Below the pieces are notes generated by a model. It was not told the DNA's origin. It worked only from the letters and a program-made list of their open reading frames with translations, and did no database searches. 64,000 bases of DNA from Synergistes jonesii (GTDB taxonomy: Bacteria > Synergistota > Synergistia > Synergistales > Synergistaceae), in contig NZ_JMKI01000037.1 of assembly GCF_000712295.1 (NCBI RefSeq), positions 124,001 to 188,000 of the forward strand. The letters run 5' to 3'. This document shows positions 49,703 to 52,735 of the stretch, one piece after another; position 1 is the stretch's first letter; each line of letters opens with the position of its first letter. A program made the translations under genes and the position numbers.

Positions 49703-51007
49703 CTACAGTTCCTCTTCGTCCTGCCAGATTCTTTCGCCGCCGACGAAGGTCGCCACGGGCCAGCCCGTCAGGGCCGTGCCTTCCCACGGGCAGCAGCGCG
49801 CCTTGCTCTTCCACGCCGAGCAGTCGACTATGCGGGTCCTATCCTCGTCGACGACCGTGAGATCCGCCGGGGCTCCCTCCTCGATCCTGCCGAGCCCGTG
49901 CCACTTCTCCGGCAGAAGGGCGGCGGGGGAGGAAGTCATCTTCCTGAATAGCAGTTCGAGCGGAACCTCGGGATAATTTCTCGCACGGTAGTCGAGGAGC
50001 ACCGCGACGGCGCATTCGAGCGACGCGATTCCGAACGGCGCCTCCTGAAAGGGCTCGTCCTTGTCGTCGAGATGCCACGGCGCGTGGTCCGTCACTATCG
50101 CGTCGATCGTTCCGTCCAGCAATCCCTCCCAGAGAGCCTTCTGGTCGTTCGCGGAGCGGAGCGGCGGGTTGACCTTGAAACGCGAATTGTAGCCGCTCGC
50201 GATCACCGCGTTCTCGTTGAGGGTCAGATGGTGGAACGTCGTGTCGCAGCTGACGTCCAGCCCCGCGCGCTTCGCGTTGCGGATGAGCTCTACCGCGCCG
50301 GCGCTCGAAAGATGCGTGAAATGTATCCTTCCGCCCGTGTCGCGGACGAGCGCTATGCCGCGCGCGACGTCTATCTCCTCGGACGCGCCGGGGATGCCTT
50401 TAAGCCCGGACATCGCGCTGACGCGCCCCTCGTGCACCTGCCCTCCCTGGAAGAGGCTTATCTCTTCCGGATGTTCCATCACGCGCGGCAGCTTTTTGCC
50501 CGTGTACAGCAACGCGAGGCGCATCAGGTGGCTCGTTGCGATAGGCGATCCGTCGTCCGTGAAGAATACCGCGCCGGCCTCGGACATCTTTTCCATCTCG
50601 CATATCTCTTTGCCCCCGCGCCCCTTGCTTACGCAGCCGGCCGGAAGTATGCGCGCCGCGCGCGCCGCGGCGCCGTGGCTTATCACGTATTCGATCAGCG
50701 CCGGCTCGGATATCGCCGGCTTCGTGTTCGGCATCGCGACGAGCGTCGTGAAGCCTCCGGCAGCTCCGGCGCGCGCGCCGCTTTGCAGGTCTTCGTTCCA
50801 TTCGCCGCCAGGGTCGCGGAAATGCGCGTGCAGGTCTATGAAGCCCGGCGTCAGCAGGCGGCCGTTTCCCTCTACCGTTTCGGCGCCTTCGCATTCGAGC
50901 GCCGAGCCGACCCTCGATATCTTGCCCTCCTCGGTGAGGAGGCACTCTTCCTTTATGAATTCTTTGCCGTTGAAAATTTTAAAATTTTTGAAGAGAAACT
51001 TCATCAT
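49703..51007 (-). CDS. pyrC: Dihydroorotase
   Basis: Cyclises carbamoyl-aspartate to dihydroorotate. The 434-aa class I enzyme has LLTPGFIDLHAHFRDPG (metal ligands H59 and H61), GAAGGFTTLVAMPNTKP, the later metal-site histidines (CDTTFHHLTL) and VTDHAPWHLDDK with the catalytic Asp. The start overlaps the pyrB stop (ATGATG, GGAGGT upstream; either ATG may be used). The open frame upstream lies in pyrB. Confidence 0.94.
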   Translation of the reverse strand: MMKFLFKNFKIFNGKEFIKEECLLTEEGKISRVGSALECEGAETVEGNGRLLTPGFIDLHAHFRDPGGEWNEDLQSGARAGAAGGFTTLVAMPNTKPAISEPALIEYVISHGAAARAARILPAGCVSKGRGGKEICEMEKMSEAGAVFFTDDGSPIATSHLMRLALLYTGKKLPRVMEHPEEISLFQGGQVHEGRVSAMSGLKGIPGASEEIDVARGIALVRDTGGRIHFTHLSSAGAVELIRNAKRAGLDVSCDTTFHHLTLNENAVIASGYNSRFKVNPPLRSANDQKALWEGLLDGTIDAIVTDHAPWHLDDKDEPFQEAPFGIASLECAVAVLLDYRARNYPEVPLELLFRKMTSSPAALLPEKWHGLGRIEEGAPADLTVVDEDRTRIVDCSAWKSKARCCPWEGTALTGWPVATFVGGERIWQDEEEL

Positions 51008-51960
51008 CTTGCACCTCCGCCGCAGAGATAAAGAAGCGCCATCCTCGTCGCGACGCCGGAACGGACCTGTTCGAGTATCACGCTCTGATGCCCGTCGGCA
51101 ACCTCGGAGGCTATCTCCACACCCCTGTTTATCGGCCCGGGATGCATCGCGAGGGCTCCGGGCTTCGCGCGCTTCATCAATTCTTCGTCGGCGCCCCACC
51201 AGCGGTGATATTCGTCGACCGACGGAAAGAGCCCCTCCTGCTGTCTCTCTCTCTGTATCCTCAGCAGATAGACCATATCCGCACCCTTCACCGCGTCGCG
51301 CGGTTCGCGCTCGTAGGCTACCCCCAAGTCTTCGACCTCGCGCGGCATCAGCGTCGGCGGGCCGGAGAGGACGACTTCGCAGCCCATCGTCCTGAAGGCT
51401 ATGACGTCGCTGCGCGCCACCCTGCTGTGCAGTACGTCGCCTATCAGCGCGATCTTTCTGCCCTCAAGGTCGCCGTAATGCTTCCACGCGGTGTAAACGT
51501 CGAGCAGCGCCTGCGTCGGGTGCGCGTGAGTGCCGTCGCCGGCGTTGAGCACTATGCCACGCTTCAGCTTCGACGCGAGATACTGCGCCGCACCGACTGC
51601 ACCGTGGCGCATCACGACTATGTCGGCGCCCATCGACTCGAGCGTCCACGCGGTGTCGCGCATCGTCTCGCCCTTCGCCGTGCTCGAGCCGGAGGCCGAC
51701 CAGTTGACGACGTCGGCCGAGAGCATCTTTTCGGCGAGCTCGAAGGAGACGCGAGTGCGCGTCGAATTTTCGAAGAAGAGATTCACGCACATCTTGCCGC
51801 GCAGAGCCGGAACTTTTTTCACCGGCCTGTCCATAACGTTCTCCATCTGGCGGGACTGGTCGAGGAAGAATAAAAATTCGTCGCGCGTCCAGCCGTCAAG
51901 GTCTATAACGCTGCGATGGCGCCAGCCCATCGTGCCCATCTCGTTACGCGTCGCGCTCAC
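51004..51960 (-). CDS. pyrB: Aspartate carbamoyltransferase catalytic chain
   Basis: Joins carbamoyl phosphate and aspartate. The 318-aa protein has the carbamoyl-phosphate signature FFENSTRTRVSFELAEKML, SSTAKGETMRDT, VVMRHGAVGAAQ, NAGDGTHAHPTQALLD, IALIGDVLHSRVARSD and the aspartate-binding AMHPGPINRGVEI. No pyrI regulatory chain is adjacent. The GTG start at 51960 uses a GAGGTGG box that lies within the end of pyrR, overlapping it by 17 nt. Confidence 0.96.
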   Translation of the reverse strand: MSATRNEMGTMGWRHRSVIDLDGWTRDEFLFFLDQSRQMENVMDRPVKKVPALRGKMCVNLFFENSTRTRVSFELAEKMLSADVVNWSASGSSTAKGETMRDTAWTLESMGADIVVMRHGAVGAAQYLASKLKRGIVLNAGDGTHAHPTQALLDVYTAWKHYGDLEGRKIALIGDVLHSRVARSDVIAFRTMGCEVVLSGPPTLMPREVEDLGVAYEREPRDAVKGADMVYLLRIQRERQQEGLFPSVDEYHRWWGADEELMKRAKPGALAMHPGPINRGVEIASEVADGHQSVILEQVRSGVATRMALLYLCGGGAR

Positions 51961-52495
51961 AGATTACCACCTCATCCTTTCCGTCAAGCTCTTCCACCCT
52001 GACCTCTATGACTTCGTTCTTCGACGTCGGCACGTTCCTGCCGCAAATATCCGCGTGTATCGGCAGCTCGCGGTGCCCACGGTCGACGATCACCGCAAGC
52101 TGGACGCTCTGCGGACGACCGAGGTCGACGAGCGCCTCGAGCGCCGCGCGCACTGTGCGCCCCGTGAAGATGACGTCGTCTACGAGGAAAATATGCTTGC
52201 CGCAGATATCCTCAGGCATCCTCGTGCTGTGGACGATGGGCTGCTCCGAAAGCGTCGTCAGATCGTCGCGGTAGAGAGTTATGTCGAGCTCTCCGCAGGG
52301 GACCTTCACGCCTTCGGCGTCTTCAACGAGCTTCTGCAGGCGGCGCGCTATATATACGCCGCGGCGGTGGATGCCGACGAGAATCATCCTGTCGGTGCCC
52401 TTGTTGCGCTCGACCATCTCATGGGCGATTCTGCGTATCACGCGGTTCAAGTCCTGCGCGTTCATCAGCTTCGCCTTTTCTCTGAGCTCTGCCAT
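51944..52495 (-). CDS. pyrR: Bifunctional pyr operon regulator / uracil phosphoribosyltransferase PyrR
   Basis: A UMP-sensing RNA-binding attenuation protein with weak UPRTase activity. The 183-aa sequence has the PRPP-binding IFLVDDVIFTGRTVRAAL, RRIAHEMVERNKG, LVGIHRRGVYIARRL and GELDITLYRDDL, the usual PyrR pattern. First gene of the pyr operon, with an RNA hairpin matching the PyrR-binding consensus directly upstream. Confidence 0.96.
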   Translation of the reverse strand: MAELREKAKLMNAQDLNRVIRRIAHEMVERNKGTDRMILVGIHRRGVYIARRLQKLVEDAEGVKVPCGELDITLYRDDLTTLSEQPIVHSTRMPEDICGKHIFLVDDVIFTGRTVRAALEALVDLGRPQSVQLAVIVDRGHRELPIHADICGRNVPTSKNEVIEVRVEELDGKDEVVICERDA

Positions 52496-52636
52496 TTATA
52501 CTCCCCCTGATTCAATTGTTTTCCGGCAAAAAATAAGACCGCCCCTCTCGGGACAGTCTGTAAAAGCAGCGAAAGGCACGGCTTGGAACGGAAAAGAATC
52601 TCGCCGAAGCTCTGAAACGAAATCCCATTTCATCAT
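52496..52636 (-). CDS. Candidate 46-aa leader ORF across the pyr attenuator
   Basis: ATGATG with GGGGGTG 6 nt upstream opens a 46-codon frame (MMKWDFVSELRRDSFPF...) that reads straight through the PyrR-type hairpin (encoding TDCPERGG) and stops with TAA immediately before the pyrR ATG. No known family. Its good ribosome-binding site and exact end at pyrR suggest it is translated and may interact with attenuation or feed ribosomes into pyrR; the TAA-ATG junction is seen directly, the role is inference. Confidence 0.45.
   Translation of the reverse strand: MMKWDFVSELRRDSFPFQAVPFAAFTDCPERGGLIFCRKTIESGGV
52528..52559 (-). promoter_or_regulatory. PyrR-dependent attenuator hairpin of the pyr operon
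   Basis: Minus strand: a 10-bp stem AGACTGTCCC/GGGGCGGTCT around GAGA, followed by TATTTTTT. The stretch TCCCGAGAGG matches the PyrR binding core UCCNGNGAGG. The hairpin thus looks like a terminator that also contains the PyrR site; UMP-bound PyrR should favour termination. A competing antiterminator was not worked out. Confidence 0.85.
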
Positions 52637-52667
52637 CCGCCGCACCCCCTTTTTCTGAACTGCGAGC

Positions 52668-52696
52668 ATTATACAGGATATTTTTATTATATGCAA
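52668..52696 (-). promoter_or_regulatory. Sigma-70 promoter of the pyr operon
   Basis: TTGCAT (52691-52696), 17-nt spacer, perfect TATAAT (52668-52673). It predicts a leader of about 165 nt before pyrR containing the attenuator. Confidence 0.83.
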
Positions 52697-52735
52697 GCGG
52701 TTGCAAAAATTATTTCCGACGCTTCGGCGGCGTAC

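Follow-up and report, generated by a model that had tools for sequence, protein, structure and literature searches.

The pyrL-pyrBI leader of E. coli is a ribosome-coupled pyr attenuator, in which coupling of the ribosome suppresses the terminator (PMC5021804); a control layer of this sort, which a sequence-only reading of the present locus had described as missing from the Bacillus model, is therefore not new in kind. The pyrL ORF encodes 44 aa, crosses the terminator and stops 3 nt before pyrB. For Thermus strain ZO5, a scheme that combines PyrR with leader-ORF attenuation has reportedly been proposed. Our search for literature on pyr control in Synergistota, swamped by unrelated matches, found none. 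Here we analyzed the leader of the pyrR-pyrB-pyrC operon in a 64,000-nt stretch of DNA from Synergistes jonesii (hereafter the window), where the leader ORF stops 0 nt before pyrR.

The leader anatomy described in the sequence-only reading is real. The promoter, the Shine–Dalgarno (SD) element and a terminator-like hairpin containing the proposed PyrR core were all found on the minus strand, as was an ORF of 46 codons that passes through the hairpin and whose TAA stop abuts the start codon of pyrR (Table 1). The hairpin has a predicted stability of -17 kcal/mol (z = -4.5), equaled in 0 of 200 shuffles, and was picked up by a terminator scan. We infer that the leader ORF is translated and that its ribosomes are coupled to transcription; the leader, which lies under a LacI-type operator, probably attenuates transcription through ribosome coupling in the manner of pyrL-pyrBI.

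Table 1. Coordinates of the pyr leader and operon features in the window
Feature	Position	Strand	Remarks
Palindromic operator TTGCAACCGCTTGCAT	52691..52706	-	Right half doubles as the pyr promoter's -35 hexamer
Sigma-70-type promoter	52668..52696	-	TTGCAT (52696-52691), 17 nt, TATAAT (52673-52668); from sequence, aligned position kept in relatives
SD of leader ORF, AAGGGGGTG	52643..52651	-	From sequence
Leader ORF, 46 codons (MMKWDFVSELRRDSFPFQAVPFAAFTDCPERGGLIFCRKTIESGGV)	52496..52636	-	ATG at 52636, TAA at 52498-52496, abutting the pyrR ATG at 52495; position class conserved, residues not
Segment AAGCCGTGCCTTTC, possible anti-SD	52571..52584	-	Predicted pairing with leader SD; suggestive only
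Intrinsic terminator	52528..52559	-	Inside leader ORF; 10-bp stem and GAGA loop, AGACTGTCCC-GAGA-GGGGCGGTCT (52559-52536), then U tract TATTTTTT
pyrR (183 aa)	51944..52495	-	Heads the pyrR-pyrB-pyrC operon, which starts at 52495
pyrB, aspartate carbamoyltransferase	51004..51960	-	Overlaps the end of pyrR
pyrC-like dihydroorotase reading frame	49703..51199	-	Mechanical ORF by sequence; true start probably later

For comparison, pyrR leaders were gathered from across Synergistota, and 123 were analyzed. In each, the leader ORF was picked without regard to its length, the only criteria being SD strength and start codon. Thirty-seven leaders have both the promoter operator and a terminator (operator class). 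A strong SD is present in all of these, and in 35 the best-SD ORF either comes within 15 nt of the terminator or runs past that point, versus 17.3 expected from dinucleotide shuffles. When one leader per genus was counted, an open SD-led ORF was seen in 16 of 17, versus 8.0 expected (median p about 2.5e-5). What is conserved is an open frame that reaches the terminator or crosses it, not the exact length of 46 codons. Among the Synergistota leaders compared, no conserved leader peptide was found; residues drift, and substitution ratios for close pairs are weak (Sd/S 0.18–0.40 versus Nd/N 0.19–0.22). These data suggest that selection acts on translation and on the position of the stop, not on the peptide. 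Diverging peptides with clustered stops are the pattern that would be expected if translation matters and its product does not. With best-SD ORFs open to or through the terminator and no conserved peptide, ribosome-coupled attenuation of the pyrL-pyrBI type is the best reading of these leaders.

The stops cluster at the base of the hairpin in L005, L006, L011, L013 and L014, 53–84 nt upstream of pyrR, and fall at the pyrR start in L020, L027, L033, L100, L137, L142 and L144. The latter often take the form of a 4-nt ATGA or GTGA overlap, an arrangement found in twelve leaders (L023, L024, L026, L146 and L161 besides those just named). Such junctions, like the TAA|ATG of the window, would suit reinitiation, a process proposed for leaders in general terms (PMC4833913): ribosomes ending at the TAA would restart at the abutting ATG and boost PyrR synthesis, any effect on termination being secondary. 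Yet the stops at the hairpin base are too distant from pyrR for simple reinitiation, and the window pyrR carries an SD of its own (AGGGGGAG), so we regard this explanation as unlikely. In the sister genus (L005, L006), the ORF ends 6 nt before the hairpin, and the stop-on-ATG form is not kept. Hence, of the two features whose conservation bore on the sequence-only proposal, the open frame recurs in 16 of 17 genera, whereas the stop/start junction is not retained even in the sister genus.

In three close relatives (L007, L008 and L009), the whole attenuator, both ORF and terminator, has been lost, while operator and promoter are kept. Two of these, L007 and L008, are congeners with a PyrR 91% identical to that of the window, so the attenuator is dispensable. 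Because the sister-genus and congener forms differ, we view a frame running through to pyrR as one of several states that should all have the same effect. The losses would also fit a scheme in which the terminator attenuates constitutively, or independently of transcription factors, the ORF is incidental and the operator alone regulates. But open strong-SD frames are more frequent across genera than expected, as noted above, and we find that scheme rather improbable. In genus g37 (genomes G078, G079 and G080; L125, L131, L132, L135, L136 and L138), pyrR is present twice per genome: one copy has an operator, a leader ORF and a terminator; for the other, no operator or terminator was found in the 320 nt upstream. 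Beyond Synergistota, leaders from Gemmatimonadota, Gammaproteobacteria and other groups (L042–L099) showed no PyrR core within 350 nt upstream of pyrR, and inspection of their final 150 nt by eye revealed no comparable attenuator.

A terminator traversed by ribosomes thus recurs before pyrR in the phylum, and whether the hairpin forms very likely depends on ribosome flow. This upholds one half of the competition between ribosomes and PyrR that had been suggested for the locus; the role given to PyrR does not stand, as described below. In the mechanism we propose, a ribosome close behind RNA polymerase in the leader ORF would cover the left arm of the terminator, and polymerase would read into pyrR-pyrB-pyrC. 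If the ribosome lagged or had not loaded, the hairpin would form and transcription would stop. PyrR would play no part at this leader. Pyrimidine status would most likely be read at the -35 operator, bound by the single LacI-type protein of the genome. A second possible pyrimidine input is the speed of polymerase at pyrimidine-rich stretches before the hairpin. U content there is 35%, versus 27% and 24% farther upstream. This enrichment is mild, and PyrR-type leaders show U enrichment too, so sensing of UTP is unproven, and U-tract pausing was set aside as a candidate. A hairpin between the leader SD and a possible anti-SD was also considered as a conserved switch but is not claimed: the pairing is suggestive in L005 and L006 (z = -3.1 and -3.3) and in L134, but for the window it does not reach significance (z = -0.4). 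In these three leaders and in L017, the SD can pair with a pyrimidine-rich segment 25–45 nt before the terminator, a weak tendency overall.

The part assigned to PyrR was that it binds the terminator hairpin via UCCCGAGAGG, competing with ribosomes that translate through it. The core UCCNGNGAGG is literally present inside the terminator (52553-52544), in the hairpin loop region of a pyrR leader; sister-genus L005 has it with one mismatch, and the window PyrR retains the equivalents of H22, R27, H140 and R141. However, the 10-mer occurs seven times in the window (2.9 expected) and therefore means little by itself, and it is absent from L006, L010, L011 and L013–L018, which retain the terminator. 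The fold also differs. The window hairpin is a GAGA-tetraloop terminator rather than the PyrR hexaloop-plus-bulge structure; an upper stem on a CNGNGA hexaloop and a lower stem bulged at CCUUU/AAGG were both sought in it and not found. The stem beside the core does not match (only one of four flank pairs forms), and there is no lower stem.

To place the window hairpin on a quantitative scale, we aligned 23 genuine PyrR hairpins from other Synergistota pyrR leaders and built a covariance model. These have a six-pair upper stem on the hexaloop and a four-pair lower stem, and their alignment covaries (20 cells changed on both sides, versus 7.5 in shuffles). Five held-out true elements scored 34–47 bits; the window hairpin scored 7.2 bits, owed solely to the ten core bases, and was not among the matches when the full window was searched. 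Rfam model RF00515 matched all 14 hairpin-carrying leaders tested, mostly under its cut-off, and gave no match in the window or in the operator-class relatives tested. Genome-wide, its best matches scored 25.5 and 22.6 bits and lay at a single spot, one on each strand; both fell below the 54-bit cut-off and were taken as noise, not as a PyrR element elsewhere. Model score, fold, non-conservation and core frequency together led us to reject PyrR binding at the window hairpin. The suspected site looks like a coincidence of sequence, and competition between PyrR and ribosomes at this leader is highly improbable.

In other genera, a canonical PyrR hairpin lies directly on the leader SD (L019, L023–L026, L030, L101, L102, L108, L124 and L161), and from there the leader ORF extends as far as a terminator or past it, often reaching the pyrR start. 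Competition as first imagined would fit those genera, not the window, and their layout corresponds to the scheme reportedly put forward for Thermus ZO5. The PyrR proteins differ as well. The window PyrR has H at the position of B. subtilis R146 and R at that of K152, two basic residues of the B. subtilis protein with a role in RNA binding. Among 40 hairpin genomes, 29 have R or K at position 146; among 56 with the operator only, none does, and otherwise these residues were seen solely in genomes with neither element; H146 also occurs in four hairpin-bearing genomes. This pattern, confounded like our other tallies by sequence relatedness, suggests a loss of RNA binding by PyrR. The protein itself is presumably kept for uracil salvage.

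We then considered the promoter. Roughly half of the pyrR promoters in Synergistota have the operator conserved at the -35 position. The exact sequence TGCAANCGNTTGCA occurs at two sites in the 2.74-Mb genome, versus 0 for a reversed-pattern control: one at pyrR, the other at a gene for an NCS2 (Xan_ur_permease) uracil-type permease (L196; G000:C38:36013). The permease site was found in nine of nine Synergistaceae checked, the window genome included. In various Synergistota, sites also precede pyrB, a carA-like gene and a cytosine-deaminase-like gene, the last two named by reading the sequence. Besides the two sites of this genome, the set includes L237–L238, L247–L248, L249–L256, L258 and L260–L262. 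Together these constitute the predicted pyrimidine regulon of a LacI-type repressor; no description of such a repressor was found in the literature searched. Near gyrB in genus g30 (L221, L223, L257 and L264), the palindrome lies outside any obvious pyrimidine gene, reflecting either chance or a different regulator.

The genome holds one LacI-type helix–turn–helix (HTH) protein (L197:1483-2085; G000:C21:30390-30989). Across 188 Synergistota genomes, 65 have both operator and LacI-type protein, 7 the operator only, 13 the protein only and 103 neither, an odds ratio of 74 in a count that ignores kinship. We infer that this protein binds the operator in response to an effector. Its length, ∼195–200 aa, is conserved across Synergistaceae (L199–L218). 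It consists of the HTH and N-subdomain followed by a short C-terminal piece weakly matching CcpA 291–310, so that the C-subdomain, which binds the effector, is largely missing. In other families, the reading frames of its relatives span about 267–335 aa.

At pyrR, 56 leaders have the operator only, 37 the PyrR hairpin only, 3 both and 27 neither. The two elements are nearly exclusive, in tallies confounded by sequence relatedness. Five hairpins missed by a regular expression were added by the covariance model (L020, L119, L162, L174 and L178), and L020 has an operator in addition to its hairpin. A single phylum hence offers a series: a PyrR hairpin controlling a leader ORF, hairpin plus operator, operator plus leader ORF, and operator alone. 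Along it, RNA-based control by PyrR appears to yield to a DNA-binding repressor while PyrR stays, and the series opens two events to direct testing: loss of RNA binding by PyrR and the exchange of one regulator for another. More tentatively, it is possible that in much of Synergistota a LacI-type repressor (truncated to ∼195 aa in Synergistaceae) replaced the PyrR-RNA switch and that the ribosome-coupled attenuator persisted without PyrR and came to respond to polymerase speed, perhaps because a downstream segment pairs late with the leader SD.

Each described system shares some features with the window leader. As with LacI-family nucleotide repressors such as E. coli PurR, a central-CG palindrome lies near a nucleotide-gene promoter, and here the genome has a single LacI-type protein; but the genes are for pyrimidines rather than purines, and the Synergistaceae protein is much reduced in its effector-binding part. 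The Bacillus PyrR attenuator (RF00515) is matched in position, before a pyrR-headed pyr operon, and in having a terminator and the 10-nt core, but no anti-antiterminator fold was found in the window leader, and neither Rfam nor our own model finds a match. In common with the Thermus ZO5 scheme, a leader ORF runs through a terminator before pyrR, whereas the PyrR hairpin overlapping the leader SD, met in several other Synergistota genera, is absent from the window. The reading we favor likens the leader to E. coli pyrL-pyrBI. Although the first gene in the window is pyrR, the -35 element overlaps a conserved operator and a U-rich pause tract is not clear-cut, both leaders have an SD-led ORF of 44–46 codons that passes through an intrinsic terminator and ends beside the first structural gene. 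On our reading, the window leader would carry ribosome-coupled pyr attenuation, the classic enterobacterial mechanism, into a distant phylum and into an operon whose first gene is pyrR.
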